The notes below the pieces were generated by a model. That model made no database searches, had not been told where the DNA came from, and was given only the letters and a program-made list of their open reading frames with translations. This document shows positions 12,870 to 41,455 of a stretch of DNA of 49,691 nt, one piece after another. The stretch comes from an uncultured Prochlorococcus sp. Its GTDB lineage: Bacteria; Cyanobacteriota; Cyanobacteriia; PCC-6307; Cyanobiaceae. The first letter of the stretch is position 1, and each line of letters begins with the position of its first letter. The stretch spans positions 1 through 49,691 of the forward strand of contig CACOIV010000010.1 of the NCBI GenBank assembly GCA_902627335.1, read 5' to 3'. Both the position numbers and the translations under genes were made by a program.

Positions 12870-13099
12870 TTACCAATTCCCCTTAGATAAATAAGTTCTT
12901 TCCCAGGCTTCATTCAGCATCTCTTCGTATTCTTTTATTAGTTCTTTCCCAGGCTTCATTCAGCATCTCTGCGTATTCTTTTATAAGTTCTTTCCCAGGC
13001 TTCATTCAGTATCTCTTCGTATTCTTTTATAACTTCTTCAATAGTTTCAATCCTAGGCCCTTTCCAAAATAGCCTTGTTGAAACTCTTAAAATAATCAA
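12870..13099 (-). pseudogene. Small gene broken by a 46-bp triplication
   Basis: On the minus strand, codons from about 13099 read STRLFWKGPRIETIEEVIKE, then YEEILNEAWERTY, and then run out of frame into a stop (RIRRDAE then TGA). The last copy of the repeat, in another frame, reads IKEYEEMLNEAWERTYLSKG and ends NW plus TAA at 12870-12872. With a single copy of the 46-bp unit the frame would be continuous and give a short protein ending LSKGNW. Two extra copies add 92 bp, which is not a multiple of three, so the frame is lost. The start is unclear (TTG at 13097, with an in-frame TAA 6 bp upstream). The rest of 12724-13296 has no other gene that I can support. Confidence 0.55.
12894..13031. 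repeat. Three tandem copies of a 46-bp unit
   Basis: Copies lie at 12894-12939, 12940-12985 and 12986-13031, each starting AGTTCTTTCCCAGGCTTCAT. Copy 2 differs from copy 1 by T-to-G in the CTCTTCG block and at the last base; copy 3 has one C-to-T change (CAGTATC). Near-identity points to recent duplication. The unit is protein coding on the minus strand (KEYEEMLNEAWERT). Confidence 0.95.
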
Positions 13100-35104: not shown

Positions 35105-35950
35105 ATGAAAATTTCCTCAAAAATAAAACTAAATATTTTAAATAAATCATTTTTTATAATTATTGCATTAATACTTTGTAGTTGTTCAAATTTATTAACA
35201 ACAAAAGAGCCCACGATAACTAATTTAATCAAGCAGCAAAAGGAGGAAATCAATTCATATAGTCAGGCATTATTAAAAGATCCAAAAAATGAAAAATTAA
35301 TTTTTGATAGAGGAATAGCTCGATATGAATATGGGGATTATAAAGGGGCTATAAATGATTTTGATAAAGCTTTTCAAATATCAAGTGACTTAACAATATT
35401 ATATTCAAGAGCAATTTCAAAATTTGAGTATGGAGATTATAAAGGGGCTATAGATGACTATAAAAAATTACTTAGGATTAAAGATTTAAGAAAGGAAATA
35501 TATCTAGATATTGGATTAATAAATTTTTATTCTTTTAATTATCAAAATGCATTACTAAATTTCAGCAAAGTTATTGAAGAAGTAAAATCTGATTATAAAA
35601 ATTTTTTATATAGAGGAGATACAAACTTTAGATTAAAGAACTATAAGGACTCGCAAAAAGACTATAATAGGTCCATTGAATTATTCAATAAAAATTATTT
35701 AAGTCATAATAATAGGGGCGTCAATAACTACAAAGAAGGCAATTTCAAAAATTCCCTAAGAGATTTTAATAGGTCTTTAAAACTTAACCCAGGCAATTAT
35801 AATGTTATTTACAACAGAGCTAAGACATACGATAAGTTAAATCTAAATAAAAAAGCTTGTATTGATTTAAAAAAATCAATCAAGCTTGGTAAGGATGTTT
35901 TTAAAGAAGAATACTATTTTATTTGCAATAAAAACTTATATAAAGAGTAG
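35105..35950 (+). CDS. TPR-repeat lipoprotein
   Basis: The 281-residue protein has a signal sequence ending ALILCSCSN, with a probable lipidated Cys in the LCSC lipobox. About six tetratricopeptide repeats follow, for example YEYGDYKGAINDFDKAF, FEYGDYKGAIDDYKKLL and YKEGNFKNSLRDFNRSLKL. Two neighbouring units share the sequence EYGDYKGAI almost exactly, also at DNA level (35329-35355 and 35428-35454), indicating recent internal duplication. TPR lipoproteins act as scaffolds; the partner is unknown. The poly-glycine gene is convergent 9 bp away. Confidence 0.78.
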   Translation: MKISSKIKLNILNKSFFIIIALILCSCSNLLTTKEPTITNLIKQQKEEINSYSQALLKDPKNEKLIFDRGIARYEYGDYKGAINDFDKAFQISSDLTILYSRAISKFEYGDYKGAIDDYKKLLRIKDLRKEIYLDIGLINFYSFNYQNALLNFSKVIEEVKSDYKNFLYRGDTNFRLKNYKDSQKDYNRSIELFNKNYLSHNNRGVNNYKEGNFKNSLRDFNRSLKLNPGNYNVIYNRAKTYDKLNLNKKACIDLKKSIKLGKDVFKEEYYFICNKNLYKE

Positions 35951-35959
35951 AGATGAGAT

Positions 35960-36247
35960 CTATTCAGCTAATATAGCTTTTTCTTCATCAGTTAAAGGTA
36001 AACCTTTTCTTTGCTTAAACATAGCCTTTGCTTTGGCTTGTTTAGCTTTCTTCGCTTTCTTTGCTTTAACGCCGCCGCCTCCGCCGCCGCCGCCGCCGCC
36101 GCCGCCGCAGGATAATAAGTATTCCTCAGCTTGATTTTGTTCAAATCTTGAGGATATTCCGCTAGCCAAGATTGAGTCACTAGATACTATTCCAAATGGG
36201 ATAGCAAAAACAGCTGTAAAAGCAATTTTTAAGAATTTAGAATTCAT
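35960..36247 (-). CDS. Signal-peptide protein with twelve consecutive glycines
   Basis: The 95-residue product from the ATG at 36247 starts MNSKFLKIAFTAVFAIPFGI with a signal peptide probably cleaved after SILA. The sequence then reads RFEQNQAEEYLLSC, twelve Gly, an Ala/Lys tract (VKAKKAKKAKQAKAKAMF) and the C-terminus PLTDEEKAILAE. A TTG at 36271 would add 8 residues but spoils the signal peptide start. The other frames of the GCC tract give poly-Ala or poly-Pro and lack a signal peptide. The size and layout recall radical-SAM-associated Gly-rich precursors (GrrA type), but no maturase is nearby, so this is only an analogy. A Fur-box-like palindrome lies about 80 bp upstream. Confidence 0.7.
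   Translation of the reverse strand: MNSKFLKIAFTAVFAIPFGIVSSDSILASGISSRFEQNQAEEYLLSCGGGGGGGGGGGGVKAKKAKKAKQAKAKAMFKQRKGLPLTDEEKAILAE
36071..36106. repeat. GCC/GGC trinucleotide microsatellite
   Basis: Twelve codons encode the glycine run: three GCC, one TCC, then eight uninterrupted GCC on the plus strand (GGC/GGA on the coding strand). This is a pure-GC island in an AT-rich chromosome that otherwise prefers GGA/GGT. In-frame slippage would change the glycine count. Confidence 0.97.
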
Positions 36248-36329
36248 TATTAAAAGTTTTGATAAATTCAATCATTGAATAATAATTCACCAAACTAAAA
36301 AAAGTAAATTTTTGTATCGACTGTTACAG

Positions 36330-36348
36330 AATGAAAATGATTTTCATT
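36330..36348. promoter_or_regulatory. Fur-box-like 19-bp palindrome
   Basis: AATGAAAAT G ATTTTCATT is a perfect palindrome with 9-base arms and resembles Fur boxes of cyanobacterial iron-stress genes (consensus built on NATNAT/ATNATN units). It lies 83 bp upstream of the poly-glycine protein's ATG and downstream of the SGNH gene's stop, so the poly-glycine gene is the only gene it can serve as upstream operator. A -10-like TATTAT lies between it and the start. Confidence 0.6.
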
Positions 36349-36360
36349 AATCGCAATTTA

Positions 36361-36388
36361 TTTTTTATTTTTTATTTTTTATTTTTTA
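36361..36388. repeat. Four tandem copies of a 7-bp unit across a stop codon
   Basis: TTTTTTA is repeated four times. On the minus strand this encodes the final KNKK of the SGNH protein and its TAA stop (36372-36374). Because 7 is not a multiple of three, copy-number change would alter the C-terminus. Confidence 0.9.
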
Positions 36389-37631
36389 TTTGTAAAAGTT
36401 GATTTGATAATTTAAAGCTTATTTTGCTTGCTGCAAATTCTGTAAAATGACTATAGTCAAAAAACCAATTACTTTTTGCCTCTCCAGAATAATCAAGAAG
36501 CAATATTGTTGGTATTTTCTTTATCTCTCGAATTAAGGCAATACGATAATCTCTTTCAATAATTCGCATCTCACTCTCAAATATTTTTAAAGAAAATTTT
36601 GGGAAGCCTACAAGATGTCTTATCCCGATAACATACTTATTATTAAAGCTATCTTCAGATAAAGAACTAAAATAAGTTGGTGCATATACATAAATATACT
36701 TAATTTCGGGATTTAAAAGGTTACTACTGGCCTTAAGATTTCTAATCGTCGAATTTACAGAATAATCTCTTATTAATTCATATTTATCAAAATCGATACC
36801 AAAACTTTTCTCCACAATGTCTTTTAAGTTACGACTGACTGAATTTTCATTATCATTTATAACCAATTCATTTTTTTTATTATATGTAGTATTCCTGAAA
36901 TTTTTTTTATAAATTTTTTCAAAAAGATAAATTACTTTACTTTTTGCTTTTATAGAACTAATAAAAGAAAATAAGCCACTTTTAATATTTCCAGAAGTAC
37001 TACTTGATAAAAAGTTTATATATTCGATAGTAGTTTTTTCTATCATCATATTATTTGCAAATCCATATTCCAATTTGGATGAATTTTCAAAATTATTAAT
37101 TAATCTTATAAATCTCCAAAAATCTTGAATCCCACCAAAACTTACAACCATATCTAAAGCAGGCAAATCATCAAAAAAAGGTTCTGCACTTAAATATCGA
37201 ATCATTTCACTATATTCTTGCCAAGTATTAAAACCTGAATATGCCGCATTAACTAAATCAATAGAGGGATCTTTAGATCTTAAATTTAGTTCAAGCTGAC
37301 TTGCAAATGTTTTGTCATTCCCATATCCATAAAGACCTTCTCCCATCGCTACGCTATTACCTAAAAGTAAAATCCCAAATATATTTTTTCCTTTACTTTG
37401 ATAAGGAGTTTTTATAAGACCATGTCTATTACATATCAAAAATTCTTTATTCTGATCATTTGAATAATTATCATTGCATTCTTTTCTCCAGCCAGTAATT
37501 GCATCATATTTAGTTTGTCGCCTGTTAAGATGATTTTCATTTGTAAAGAAAAAACTACTTACTTCAATAGTAAAAATTATTAAAGGAAAGAATATTAATG
37601 TATAAGATAAAATTTTAATTTTTTTAGACAT
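36372..37631 (-). CDS. SGNH/GDSL-like membrane-anchored protein
   Basis: The 419-residue protein has an N-terminal membrane anchor (YTLIFFPLIIFTIEVSSFFF) and then an SGNH-hydrolase-like domain. ILLLGNSVAMGEG contains the putative nucleophile Ser93 (GNS instead of GDS), VNAAYSGFNTWQEY resembles block II, VVSFGGIQDFW takes the place of the usual GxND block, and FDYSHFTEFAA holds the Asp392/His395 pair of block V. Such proteins are often esterases or O-acyl-transfer enzymes for glycans. It is divergent from the ferritin-like/carbamoyltransferase pair, 84 bp away. Similar SGNH proteins often travel with carbamoyltransferase-DUF5989 cassettes, which supports a common role. Confidence 0.72.
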   Translation of the reverse strand: MSKKIKILSYTLIFFPLIIFTIEVSSFFFTNENHLNRRQTKYDAITGWRKECNDNYSNDQNKEFLICNRHGLIKTPYQSKGKNIFGILLLGNSVAMGEGLYGYGNDKTFASQLELNLRSKDPSIDLVNAAYSGFNTWQEYSEMIRYLSAEPFFDDLPALDMVVSFGGIQDFWRFIRLINNFENSSKLEYGFANNMMIEKTTIEYINFLSSSTSGNIKSGLFSFISSIKAKSKVIYLFEKIYKKNFRNTTYNKKNELVINDNENSVSRNLKDIVEKSFGIDFDKYELIRDYSVNSTIRNLKASSNLLNPEIKYIYVYAPTYFSSLSEDSFNNKYVIGIRHLVGFPKFSLKIFESEMRIIERDYRIALIREIKKIPTILLLDYSGEAKSNWFFDYSHFTEFAASKISFKLSNQLLQIKNKK

Positions 37632-37715: not shown

Positions 37716-38411
37716 GTGAAAAAAAAAGAATCAGCCGCTAATGTACTTTATGAAACAGCATTTGCAGAGTATGGATCTGCTTTAGAGATGTTAGCAGCTT
37801 GCAAACAAGCCATTAAAGTAAGAGAAGTTTTAGGTTTTTTTGAACATGCAAGAGATGAATATATTCATACAAAAAAGTTTCTTTCAATATTAAAAAAACA
37901 AGGAAAAAATCTCTCAAATATAATTGCAAGAAAATATAAATTTGTTCATATTGGAGCTTTAAAAAAGGGTTATGTTTCAGAGAAAGGGTATCTAATAGAG
38001 ACTAAAAAAATGAAAGATTTTGTGGCATATATATATACAAATGAATTAATAGCGGAAGATGAATTTTCAAAGATATTAAAATATTTTGAGGATGATAAAG
38101 AATCTACAGATACAATTCATTCAATTATGAAAGACGAACTTAGACATCATGGAATGGCAAGAAAATATTTTTTAAAGTATTACCCTTTTATTCAGCCCTA
38201 TCAATTAATGATTTACAAATATAGAGAATATCTTCACAATAAAGGTAGAAAGTTTTATTTTAAAAATTTTCAAATTTTAGAAAAACTATTTACTCCAATT
38301 TATTTTTCTATATCTTTTTTAGTATCTTTACCGTTACGTTTGCTAAATCAAAGAGAATTCAGCCGAATAAATAAAAATCTAATGGATATATCTTCAAAAA
38401 GTCTTCTTTAA
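37716..38411 (+). CDS. Ferritin-like diiron protein
   Basis: The 231-residue protein from a GTG start is helical with two ExxH motifs, Glu48-His51 in ARDEYIH and Glu141-His144 in KDELRHH. Further helix glutamates are present at 13/18 and in NELIAEDEF (Glu110-116). This is the ligand set of ferritin-like diiron carboxylate proteins (rubrerythrin, MiaE-like hydroxylases). A C-terminal hydrophobic segment (LFTPIYFSISFLVSLPLRLL) could attach it to a membrane. Its stop is immediately followed by the carbamoyltransferase ATG with no gap, so the two are almost surely cotranslated. Oxidation or hydroxylation of a substrate that is then carbamoylated is my inference. Confidence 0.72.
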   Translation: MKKKESAANVLYETAFAEYGSALEMLAACKQAIKVREVLGFFEHARDEYIHTKKFLSILKKQGKNLSNIIARKYKFVHIGALKKGYVSEKGYLIETKKMKDFVAYIYTNELIAEDEFSKILKYFEDDKESTDTIHSIMKDELRHHGMARKYFLKYYPFIQPYQLMIYKYREYLHNKGRKFYFKNFQILEKLFTPIYFSISFLVSLPLRLLNQREFSRINKNLMDISSKSLL

Positions 38412-40145
38412 ATGTATTTAGGTATTTCGGCATATAATCATCAGTCTGCTGCTGCATTGATTAATGAAGAAGGAGAATTAATAAACTATTACAGAGAGGA
38501 ACAGTTATCGCGAATTAAAGGTGATAATTCATTTCCTAAAAACTCTATTAAAAAATTATTTGCGACAAATTCTTTAAAAATTGATGATATAAAAAATGTT
38601 ATTTTTTATGAAAAGCCTCTTTCCGCATATCTAAATCCTTTAAAAGTAGCTGCTAAAAATCTTCCTGAAAGCTTAAATTTAATTTCACATCAATTAAAAA
38701 ATTTCAAAAAAACATCACTTTTTTGTTTTGTAGATCTTGCAAAATTATATCCTGGTCTAGAGCAAAAATTATTATACATAGACCATCATCTTTCCCATAC
38801 TCTTTCAGCTTTAGCATATGCAGAATCATTTCAAAATATTTGTTCTGTAGTAGCTGATGGATTTGGTGATCGAAGTACAACCTCAATTAGTTTTGTAAAT
38901 AATCCCAATGATATAAGAGAGCTTTGGTCAAATGATTATCCATTTTCATTAGGACTATTTTATTCTGCAATTACTGATTTTTTAGGATTTGCGATTAATG
39001 AAGGTGAATATAAGGTTATGGGTTTAGCTGCATTTGGAAAAAACGATAGCAATTTATATAATAAAATGAACAAACTTATATTTTGGGATAAAAATGAAAA
39101 AACAATAAAAATGGATTTAAGCTATTTTGAATATCATAAAAACATTTATAATTCTTTCAGCATTAAATTAGAAGAATTATTTGGATCATCAAGAAACCCA
39201 CTAGAAAAACTAGATATAAATAATAATGACTTTCAAAGATATGCAAATATTGCCTTTGCTGCTCAAGAAGTCCTAACAAATATTTTAAAGGAGCTTTTCA
39301 TATATGCCCATCAATTAACAGGTTGCTCCAAGTTCTTGTTCTCAGGTGGTGTTGCGCTAAATTCAGCTTCTTTAAGATCTATTACATCCTTATCTTTTGT
39401 AGAGAAAATTTATATTCCACCAAGTCCAGGGGATTCTGGAGCTGCAATTGGTGCCGCTTATTTTGGTTTTATAAAAAACAATAAAAATAATTCATTCAAA
39501 AGAATTACTAATCTATATCCAATAATATTTAATTCAAAAAGTCAGTACAAAAAAACAATAAAAATTGTTAGCGAGAAATTTCAATATTTATCAAAGAATA
39601 TGGAGGAGTCATTTTTATTGGCTTCTGAATTAATAAAAGAGGGAGAAACTATAGGTACTTTAATTTCTAATGCCGAGACAGGGCCTAGAGCCTTGGGGAA
39701 TAGATCTCTTATTTGTAATGGACAAAATTTAGAGGCTGTAATCAAACTGAATACAGTTATCAAAGACAGAAGTCCTTTCCGCCCAACTGCTCCTGCAATG
39801 AATGAAAGTACTGCTAAAAAATATTTCATACTTGATGATGCACTATATAATTCATATTTCTCAATGACTTCAACAGTTGTATTAAAGGGGAATAGTCCCA
39901 TAAAAGATTATCCAATAATTCATGTTGATGGCACTGCAAGATTACAAATTGTTGAACCGAATACAACTTTAGATAAATTATTACTCAACTTAAGAAAATA
40001 TGATATTGAAATAATTGCTAATTCATCTTTAAATATTAGTGGAGATCCAACCTGTTATGACTTAATTGATGGATTGATGGTTTGTGAATTATCCCCATTA
40101 AAATATTTATTAACTGATAACGGACTTCTAAAAAAATTAAATTAA
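38412..40145 (+). CDS. O-carbamoyltransferase, NodU/CmcH/TobZ family
   Basis: The 577-residue protein matches the NodU/TobZ family, which makes carbamoyl-adenylate from carbamoyl phosphate and ATP and transfers carbamoyl to a hydroxyl group of a sugar or natural product. MYLGISAYNHQSAAALI starts the ASKHA-like domain, DHHLSHTLSALAYA carries metal/active-site His125, His126 and His129, FSGGVALNSA is the nucleotide-binding loop, and GPRALGNRSL (424-433) belongs to the C-terminal carbamoyl domain. Length is typical. It follows the diiron gene without a gap and precedes the DUF5989-like gene by 4 bp. The acceptor is unknown. Confidence 0.88.
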   Translation: MYLGISAYNHQSAAALINEEGELINYYREEQLSRIKGDNSFPKNSIKKLFATNSLKIDDIKNVIFYEKPLSAYLNPLKVAAKNLPESLNLISHQLKNFKKTSLFCFVDLAKLYPGLEQKLLYIDHHLSHTLSALAYAESFQNICSVVADGFGDRSTTSISFVNNPNDIRELWSNDYPFSLGLFYSAITDFLGFAINEGEYKVMGLAAFGKNDSNLYNKMNKLIFWDKNEKTIKMDLSYFEYHKNIYNSFSIKLEELFGSSRNPLEKLDINNNDFQRYANIAFAAQEVLTNILKELFIYAHQLTGCSKFLFSGGVALNSASLRSITSLSFVEKIYIPPSPGDSGAAIGAAYFGFIKNNKNNSFKRITNLYPIIFNSKSQYKKTIKIVSEKFQYLSKNMEESFLLASELIKEGETIGTLISNAETGPRALGNRSLICNGQNLEAVIKLNTVIKDRSPFRPTAPAMNESTAKKYFILDDALYNSYFSMTSTVVLKGNSPIKDYPIIHVDGTARLQIVEPNTTLDKLLLNLRKYDIEIIANSSLNISGDPTCYDLIDGLMVCELSPLKYLLTDNGLLKKLN

Positions 40146-40149
40146 ATTT

Positions 40150-40311
40150 ATGATTTTTATAAGATTTTTAAAAAAACTTTTTATTTCTATTTGGAAAGAT
40201 TGTACCCCTTGGCAGGCTGCTTTAATAATCTCCATTATGCTTTTAATACTTATAACTTTAATAATTAGTTTTGTTCAAGTAATAGTCCCCTTTACTTACA
40301 TAGCAGTCTAA
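40150..40311 (+). CDS. DUF5989-like 53-residue membrane protein
   Basis: The ATG is 4 bp after the carbamoyltransferase stop. The product starts MIFIRFLKKLFISIWKDCTP, has one helix (AALIISIMLLILITLIISFV) and ends VPFTYIAV. DUF5989 proteins are about 50 residues, start with RFL...LW, and end with a PFIYTLF-like sequence. They occur next to NodU-type carbamoyltransferases. Length, position and terminal motif all agree, though the match is from memory of the family and was not searched. Confidence 0.62.
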   Translation: MIFIRFLKKLFISIWKDCTPWQAALIISIMLLILITLIISFVQVIVPFTYIAV

Positions 40312-40363: not shown

Positions 40364-41455
40364 CTAAACATTAAATAGAAACTCCATAACATCTCCTTCA
40401 TTTACTACATATTCCTTACCTTCACTTCTAAGTAATCCTTTGCTCTTTGCATTAGCTATTGAACCCGAATCTAATAATTTTTGATATGAAATTGTTTGAG
40501 CTCTAATAAATCCTTTTTCAAAATCAGTATGAATTACTCCTGCTGCTTGTGGAGCAGTCATACCATTTTTTATTGTCCATGCCTTAGTCTCTTTTTCACC
40601 AGTAGTAAAGTAAGTTTTTAATCCTAGTAATTTATATGTTGATTTAATTAAAGAACTTAATCCTCCTTCTTCTACTCCTAATCCTGCAAGATAATCTTTC
40701 TTATCTTCAGGATCTAACTCTATTAATTCAGATTCGACTTGAGCTGATATTTTTATACATTCTGTTTTTTCATTATTTGCAAATTGCTTTACTTTTGATG
40801 AGAATTCATTCCCTTTAGACAGATCATTTTCATTTAAATTGGTTGCGTAAATAATCGGTTTTGCAGTAAGAAAACCTAATTGTTTAATTATTAAATTTTC
40901 TTCATCGCTCAGAGAAATTGATCTAACTGAAAATCCTTTTTGTAATTCTTCCTCAATTTTTTCTAATAAAATATCTTCTTTTAGTGCTTCTTTACTTGTC
41001 TTAATCTGTTTTTTAATTCTTTCTCTTCTTTTTTGAAGTTGAGATAAATCAGCCAAATTTAATTCCAAATTAATAATTTCAATATCATCTAGGGGATCTA
41101 CCTTTCCCGAAACATGTATTACTTCACTATCTTCAAAACATCTAACAACATGTACGATTGCATCAACCTCCCTAATATTGGATAGAAATTTATTTCCTAA
41201 ACCTTCACCTTTACTAGCCCCTTTTACAAGACCAGCGATATCAACAAATTCAATTTTTGTAGGAATAACATTTATACTTGAGCTAAACTTAGCGAGTTGA
41301 TTTAATCTTTCATCAGGAACAGATACTATGCCCTTATTAGGTTCAATTGTACAAAATGGAAAGTTTGCTGCTTGAGCCTTAGAATTCTCAACAAGTGCAT
41401 TAAATAGAGTTGATTTACCTACATTAGGCAAACCTATAATTCCAGCCTTTAACAT
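40364..41455 (-). CDS. ychF: Ribosome-binding ATPase YchF
   Basis: YchF is an Obg-family P-loop protein that prefers ATP and binds the ribosome; it is linked to oxidative-stress control. The 363-residue protein has GIIGLPNVGKSTLFNAL (P-loop at 8-15), NFPFCTIEPNKGIVSVPD, the G3-like DIAGLVKGASKGEGLGNKFL, a coiled insertion and a C-terminal TGS domain including GVIHTDFEKGFIRAQTISY. Length is exactly typical. It is convergent with the DUF5989-like gene. Confidence 0.96.
   Translation of the reverse strand: MLKAGIIGLPNVGKSTLFNALVENSKAQAANFPFCTIEPNKGIVSVPDERLNQLAKFSSSINVIPTKIEFVDIAGLVKGASKGEGLGNKFLSNIREVDAIVHVVRCFEDSEVIHVSGKVDPLDDIEIINLELNLADLSQLQKRRERIKKQIKTSKEALKEDILLEKIEEELQKGFSVRSISLSDEENLIIKQLGFLTAKPIIYATNLNENDLSKGNEFSSKVKQFANNEKTECIKISAQVESELIELDPEDKKDYLAGLGVEEGGLSSLIKSTYKLLGLKTYFTTGEKETKAWTIKNGMTAPQAAGVIHTDFEKGFIRAQTISYQKLLDSGSIANAKSKGLLRSEGKEYVVNEGDVMEFLFNV

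Follow-up and report, generated by a model that had tools for sequence, protein, structure and literature searches.

A cysteine-polyglycine protein with a putative export signal recurs in one kind of carbamoylation cassette of Prochlorococcus

In an uncultured Prochlorococcus sp. whose genome assembly comprises 1.31 Mb in 68 contigs (86% complete), a stretch of 49,691 nucleotides, the whole of which was analysed and is referred to here as the window, holds an open reading frame for a 95-residue protein in which a single cysteine is followed by twelve glycines (35960 to 36247, reverse strand). This locus raises the questions of whether the frame is a real gene and, if so, with which partners its product works.

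The frame begins with an ATG at 36247 and stops at 35960-35962, and homologues indicate that the gene is real at the protein level, with the signal region, the glycine run and the basic tail all kept and the glycine codons mixed. The N-terminal signal region spans residues 1 to about 28 (36164 to 36247, reverse strand) and consists of two lysines, the h-region FTAVFAIPFGIV and the ending ..SILA, with a putative cleavage site. Hydropathy bears out the export signal that an earlier sequence-only reading had proposed, and the protein is accordingly predicted to be exported. The single cysteine is residue 47 (36107 to 36109), the twelve glycines are residues 48-59 (36071 to 36106), and the remainder is a basic Lys/Ala tail (35963 to 36070; all reverse strand) with modelled helices at residues 60-81 and 87-94, in which the Ala/Lys tract is followed by a C-terminal ..GLPLTDEEKAILAE. 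The structural model is poor overall (mean pLDDT 63, pTM 0.29), with a low-confidence linker and a block at residues 71-95 of pLDDT 75-82. Although the residues preceding the cysteine are lipobox-like, the cysteine of the cassette members lies at residues 44-49, some 20 residues past the h-region, too far for a bacterial lipoprotein. Scanning 35900-36500 for terminators and promoters yielded nothing of use.

A profile built from seven homologues matched 48 of the 266 genomes of the genus at E<=0.1; the family was taken as the 26 genomes at E<=1.1e-15 and the other 22 were dropped, two of which (G249 and G265) contain longer relatives. When the single protein was used as query, 53 of 149 genomes gave matches at E<=1, and only 7 of these looked genuine (the genome itself plus 6 of the genus). 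At the order level, a wider profile matched 24 of 399 genomes in 4 of 44 genera at E<=0.001, some of the matches being long or doubtful, and a profile of the adjoining SGNH hydrolase (described below) matched 14 of 329 genomes in 3 of 38 genera. Pattern scans for the peptide found no relative in viral or genome contigs; these are weak nulls, the scans being insensitive to a low-complexity protein, because the SGNH profile recovered 22 named loci from the genome contigs, all of them Prochlorococcus and MIT 9302 included, 18 of which carry the peptide family. All named relatives found thus far are Prochlorococcus. Common to the members are the signal region, a linker whose last residues are [LI][AS]C or some variant, the glycines and a tail, which is basic in most and in most of the form FKKR..KAAAAGEDTS..L..EI..LEA. 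The sequence-only reading had singled out a DEEKAILAE-like tail as a search key: this tail recurs in relatives outside the cassette (for example GIPLTDEEKKIL in L081), and the tail of the other 18 HL cassette members is different. No family annotation was found for the protein (24 members scanned against NCBIfam; PHROGs and other family searches), and fusolisin and similar NCBIfam matches were set aside as low-complexity noise. Judged by these comparisons the family is real and apparently undescribed so far, and among the literature matches listed no description of the family or of its cassette was found.

The glycine codons of the window gene run in the order GGC x8, GGA, GGC x3, and a period-3 array of 13 copies was detected by TRF at 36070-36108, where the GC content in 200-bp windows peaks at 0.475, compared with 0.16-0.32 in windows off the run. 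Since GGC makes up 27 of the 259 glycine codons (10.4%) in neighbouring window genes longer than 200 aa, 11 GGC in 12 codons corresponds to a binomial p of 1.7e-10, so the glycine run is indeed as conspicuous in codon use as had been noted. Among the 30 family genes first compared, runs of at least 4 glycines used GGC 106 times, GGT 59, GGA 22 and GGG 6 (n=193), and GGC accounted for 536 of 4981 glycine codons in the neighbours of those genes. Because the codons are mixed across the family, glycine itself appears to be what is kept. Unbroken stretches of 8-11 GGC were found in the window gene, L067, L079, L133, L134, L135 and L144, and a comparison across genomes revealed that the run differs in length between species, with 5 to 15 glycines among the cassette members, plus an interrupted GGSGGG in L075. 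The GGC excess, the unbroken GGC stretches and the spread of lengths would fit repeat slippage. Elsewhere in the window, at 12891-13038, a 46-bp unit is repeated 3.2 times (94% match), with no ORF of at least 80 aa there.

The Cys-polyGly gene is flanked by a convergent gene for a 281-aa TPR-repeat protein whose N-terminus is lipoprotein-like by eye (35105 to 35950, forward strand), and by the gene of a 419-aa SGNH/GDSL-like hydrolase with an N-terminal membrane helix (36372 to 37631, reverse strand). Beyond the latter lie, all on the forward strand, genes for a 231-aa ferritin-like diiron protein (37716 to 38411), a 577-aa O-carbamoyltransferase of the NodU/TobZ/GdmN type (38412 to 40145) and, directly past it, a 53-aa hydrophobic one-helix protein (40150 to 40311). 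The reverse-strand gene at 40364 to 41455, whose product we take from its sequence to be a YchF-like GTPase, is a conserved chromosomal flank of the cassette in the genus. The same six components (ferritin-like protein, carbamoyltransferase, 53-54-aa membrane protein, SGNH, Cys-polyGly and TPR) form one cassette in 19 of the 26 family genomes, with a patchy distribution in the genus. Of the 266 genomes, 19 have the main-type SGNH gene (E<=1e-130), and every one of these also has the peptide, the Cys-polyGly gene lying 86-124 bp behind the SGNH gene with the TPR gene converging on it (in L067 the TPR gene is cut off by the contig end). The 53-54-aa membrane protein was found in the window and in 12/12 of the HL cassettes looked at, from the 18 besides the window. 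One type of carbamoylation cassette thus regularly includes the Cys-polyGly protein.

More diverged cassettes extend this picture, some of them in other genera and at other chromosomal sites. In L133, L134, L135 and L144 the SGNH protein is 42-47% identical to that of the window and falls outside the main group, and the same slot, facing a TPR gene, holds an 82-84-aa protein with ..[AS]C(G)9-11... L133 and L134 belong to genomes G566 and G559 (genus g41) and L144 to G328 (genus g45); the chromosomal flanks of L133-L135 are unlike those of the main group, and L144 was seen over 3.2 kb only. No Cys-polyGly peptide was found at L136 and L137 (L160 is the L137 region again, also with none), so that the slot is filled at 4 of 6 judgeable diverged loci, L138 being left out as it ends inside the SGNH gene. 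The carbamoyltransferase block stands on the strand opposite to SGNH in the window, in L133-L136 and in L138, and on the same strand in the other HL cassettes; a local inversion in the window was considered and dropped, given that the diverged loci are arranged alike. The ferritin-like gene occurs in 25 of 266 genomes, namely the 19 plus 6 with alternative carbamoyltransferase/ferritin-like cassettes (L111-L116; 6/25 genomes), in whose surrounding 13-20 kb no poly-Gly ORF was found. SGNH relatives at 34-38% identity are present in 4 of these 6 genomes. By eye, the alternative cassettes of L114 and L116 adjoin surface-polysaccharide-like genes (sulfotransferase-like, flippase-like, GDP-sugar enzymes).

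Regarding the enzymes, the carbamoyltransferase matches Pfam at E 1.7e-38 with both Carbam_trans domains, has GdmN, the novobiocin enzyme and TobZ as PDB relatives, and falls with two Nol-like carbamoyltransferase families in PHROGs. In the ferritin-like protein, E18 and E24, E48xxH51, E110 and E141xxH144 are invariant in 20 sequences, which is the E, ExxH, E, ExxH ligand set of ferritin-like diiron proteins; the Pfam families COQ7 and Rubrerythrin match below cut-off. The SGNH protein has the block I serine and the DxxH near the C-terminus (S93, D392 and H395, invariant in 21 sequences), matches Lipase_GDSL_2 below its Pfam cut-off, and in PHROGs weakly matches a family of unknown kind. Its AlphaFold model (mean pLDDT 74, pTM 0.71) matches SGNH esterases, and when VIA-align was applied to the Foldseek candidates, CgnD (8a2n) came first (Z 21.4, rmsd 3.3, 250 aligned; next Z 16.5). 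CgnD was absent among the best 50 Foldseek matches, which are led by the EstL5 esterase, and the likeness to CgnD is of fold alone, because the SGNH profile found no match among PDB sequences. The N-side of the SGNH membrane helix is the more positive in 9/19 sequences and equal in 10/19, and two cysteines are invariant in 19 sequences, not in the wider 21; helix charge and cysteines together suggest, weakly, that the catalytic domain is periplasmic. The ferritin-like protein, the carbamoyltransferase and the SGNH protein of CgnD-like fold are therefore candidate tailoring enzymes, and the earlier remark that no cognate maturase is visible calls for revision.

The single cysteine distinguishes the cassette members. 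All 23 cassette-linked members (the 19 HL cassette members plus L133, L134, L135 and L144) have exactly one cysteine past residue 28, located at residues 44-49 and immediately ahead of the glycines, versus 2 of 8 short relatives not adjoining an SGNH gene (L086 and L146; Fisher p 4e-5, phylogeny ignored). At that position the other relatives carry Tyr (L063, L081, L082 and L083), Met (L078) or Ser (L084); L063, whose genome has no SGNH match and whose gene is close to a contig end, was counted as non-cassette. Co-divergence was assessed over the 16 cassettes in which all six genes were found (3 of 19 dropped), as the partial correlation with peptide distance given the flanking GTPase. The values obtained were 0.73 for TPR, 0.69 for SGNH, 0.65 for the carbamoyltransferase and 0.61 for the ferritin-like protein, and, when the window row was left out, 0.67, 0.57, 0.38 and 0.29, respectively. 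This co-divergence of peptide, TPR and SGNH supports an interaction and is not proof of it, because neighbouring genes can share a recombination history.

Taken together, these findings give an even chance, in our estimate, that the Cys-polyGly protein partners the SGNH/TPR arm of a carbamoylation pathway in the periplasm or at the surface, serving as acceptor or scaffold, where we infer the export, the topology, the substrate and this role. The cytosolic steps would be the oxidation of a small molecule, lipid or glycan precursor by the ferritin-like diiron protein and its O-carbamoylation by the NodU/TobZ-type enzyme; outside the membrane, the group would be handed on, trimmed or transferred by the small membrane protein and by the SGNH enzyme, which is membrane-anchored and whose catalytic domain would face the periplasm. 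There the small exported protein, composed of a signal region, a short linker ending in [LI]-[AS]-Cys, a flexible polyglycine spacer and a basic helical tail, would cooperate with SGNH enzyme and TPR protein, its likeliest role being that of an acceptor or scaffold, with the single cysteine as attachment or anchoring point, the glycine run as length-tolerant spacer and the basic helix as binding part. Several points speak against this partner role: the tailoring arm can exist without the peptide, because no poly-Gly ORF was found in the 13-20 kb around L111-L116, nor at L136 and L137; the tracking of SGNH and TPR may stem from shared recombination of immediate neighbours; short Tyr/Met/Ser relatives, as well as long proteins that are alike at the N-terminus, occur away from the cassette; and the peptide model is poor and the charge of the SGNH helix a weak pointer to its topology.

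Several known systems resemble the cassette in part. In crocagin biosynthesis, CgnD is an SGNH leader protease that frees the core from the leader and CgnI is a carbamoyltransferase (PMC10070186, PMC10885120); the system of CgnA, CgnC, CgnD and CgnI (PMC10070186) pairs a small ribosomal peptide with an iron-dependent oxygenase, a carbamoyltransferase and an SGNH hydrolase, as the cassette does with its candidate oxygenase. However, the oxygenase candidate here is ferritin-like and that of crocagin a 2-oxoglutarate dioxygenase, and in Prochlorococcus a signal region and a Cys-polyGly run set the peptide apart, as a membrane helix does the SGNH protein. In saxitoxin clusters (PMC2679770), the carbamoyltransferase gene sxtI is followed by sxtJ, sxtK (165 bp) and sxtL (1281 bp, ~426 aa), the latter a GDSL-lipase homologue with proposed decarbamoylation. 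In 12/12 HL cassettes besides the window, the order of a carbamoyltransferase, a 54-aa gene and a GDSL-like gene is similar to that part of the cluster by size and order alone; unlike it, no sxtJ-sized gene (405 bp) is present, the carbamoyltransferase-SGNH gap of 254-387 bp in those 12 holding the 54-aa ORF. The diiron protein, the Cys-polyGly protein and the TPR gene are additional here, and the window SGNH gene lies at the other side of the block and on the other strand. The likeness to NodU/TobZ/GdmN O-carbamoyltransferases resides in both Carbam_trans domains and in the PDB matches given above.

The Grr proteins of cyanobacteria are short, Gly-rich and carry an export signal, as does the protein studied here, in which the glycines are homopolymeric. 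The sequence-only reading had considered a substrate of a distant radical-SAM enzyme and called for a genome-wide search for GrrM-like genes. That search gave GrrM (TIGR04261) in 0/23 carrier genomes at E<=0.001 (9/23 of them at least 90% complete), and no Grr model is among the 6 NCBIfam families matched at E<=0.05 by 24 members; a GrrM-type maturase is thus unsupported.

Among the other explanations, we judge it unlikely that the protein is purely structural, at the surface or in the matrix, with a flexible Gly linker and a basic helix, and is co-inherited with the cassette by chance. The absence of a family annotation, the tail that is basic in most members, the low-confidence linker of the model, the relatives away from the cassette and the genomes with the enzymes and without the peptide would all suit such a protein, but the slot is kept in cassettes with different flanks (L133-L135), cassette members have the single cysteine where those outside mostly have Tyr, Met or Ser, and the peptide tracks TPR and SGNH. 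A RiPP-like precursor is rather doubtful as well; here the leader would be the N-terminal region, and the core, either the Cys-Gly run or the tail, would be oxidised by the diiron protein, carbamoylated, and set free by the SGNH enzyme as a leader protease in the manner of CgnD. It is worth testing because the enzyme set resembles that of crocagin: the cassette combines an iron-dependent oxygenase candidate, a carbamoyltransferase and an SGNH protein with CgnD as best VIA-align match, in line with the CgnD leader protease and CgnI carbamoyltransferase of crocagin biosynthesis (PMC10070186, PMC10885120), and the position of the cysteine ahead of the glycines is nearly fixed. Conversely, crocagin is processed inside the cell (PMC10885120), whereas here an export-type signal region is present in the peptide and a membrane helix in the SGNH protein; CgnD is missing from the best 50 Foldseek matches and the SGNH profile has no PDB sequence match; the same enzymes are found without the peptide; and a poly-Gly core offers little chemistry.

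A metal-responsive, metal-binding exported peptide under Fur or Zur control is far less credible, and the evidence for it starts from a perfect 9-1-9 palindrome of the Fur-family type, AATGAAAATGATTTTCATT, at 36330 to 36348 (core TGAAAATGATTTTCA at 36332-36346), the centre of which is ~92 bp upstream of the window ATG. Two further perfect 9-1-9 palindromes are present in the window. For the pattern TGANAATNATTNTCA, the window has one match (0.05 expected) and the 1.31-Mb genome has 4, compared with 1 for the pattern backwards; of the other three sites, one precedes a Crp-type regulator gene by 13 bp, with a ferritin gene nearby, another precedes znuA by 22 bp and has a Fur-family gene in its vicinity, and the third is at a contig end. 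The stricter 19-base Fur consensus has 0 matches in the window at <=3 mismatches; the best fit of the site to a 19-bp Fur consensus is 15/19, and 13 of the 16 specified bases agree with the Zur consensus quoted in PMC9337993 (hand count, shifted register). The palindrome is probably a real Fur-family operator (Fur or Zur) in this genome, by sequence. The Fur-box-like site of the sequence-only reading stands for the window, but not for the family, as only 1 of 30 family genes examined has it; metal control is not a family property because the other 29 are without a Fur-like site, the one exception being a site with 1 mismatch at a distance of 4.3 kb from L084. A relative in L078 carries GGGHGGGHSGC, which would suit metal binding, but the window protein has one cysteine and no histidine past residue 28, which leaves metal binding by several ligands, one form of the metal-binding peptide that had been proposed, without support. 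A sequencing or assembly artefact, or a spurious ORF, is the least credible explanation, virtually negligible. It might be suspected from a nearly pure GC triplet run within an AT-rich genome, but homologues in MIT 9302 and in many single-cell assemblies, with mixed glycine codons and conserved ends, refute it for the family; the exact number of glycines in the window genome may still be inaccurate. Immediately upstream of the palindrome, at 36357-36391, five perfect TTTATTT copies overlap the SGNH gene at its 3' end.

Natural-product clusters are known to contain carbamoyltransferase-SGNH modules, and one Prochlorococcus type adds a dedicated Cys-polyglycine protein with an export signal. In small Prochlorococcus genomes, the cassette would connect a tailoring pathway of the cytosol with a protein of the periplasm or surface in a way that is open to testing, and its one protein slot offers polyglycine runs of 5 to 15 residues, plus GGSGGG, as a natural series. 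A bolder proposal, which we regard as unlikely, is that the protein represents a new class of ribosomal peptide that is exported and conjugated enzymatically: a Cys-(Gly)n protein, delivered by Sec and patchy in Prochlorococcus, whose single cysteine would be modified or loaded by the diiron oxygenase, the carbamoyltransferase and the CgnD-like membrane SGNH enzyme, and whose polyglycine spacer would be tuned by slippage.

Relatives outside the cassette were characterized by their N-terminal module. Searched alone, the module of the non-cassette relatives was found at 11 loci at E<=2.5e-6 in 265 genomes, and at E<=0.05 in 128 genomes, the rest of which resemble generic signal peptides; a widespread sorting signal was rejected on the basis of those 11 loci. 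Long proteins of 259-331 aa (L085, L087 twice, and L089) have the same N-terminus with other C-terminal parts. The relatives of L081, L082, L087 (two genes) and L089, three of which are long proteins, adjoin a conserved block with a 777-798-aa gene, and those of L083-L086 do not. The short relative at 10099-10440 of L078, in which GGGHGGGHSGC replaces the Cys-polyGly run, could bind metal.
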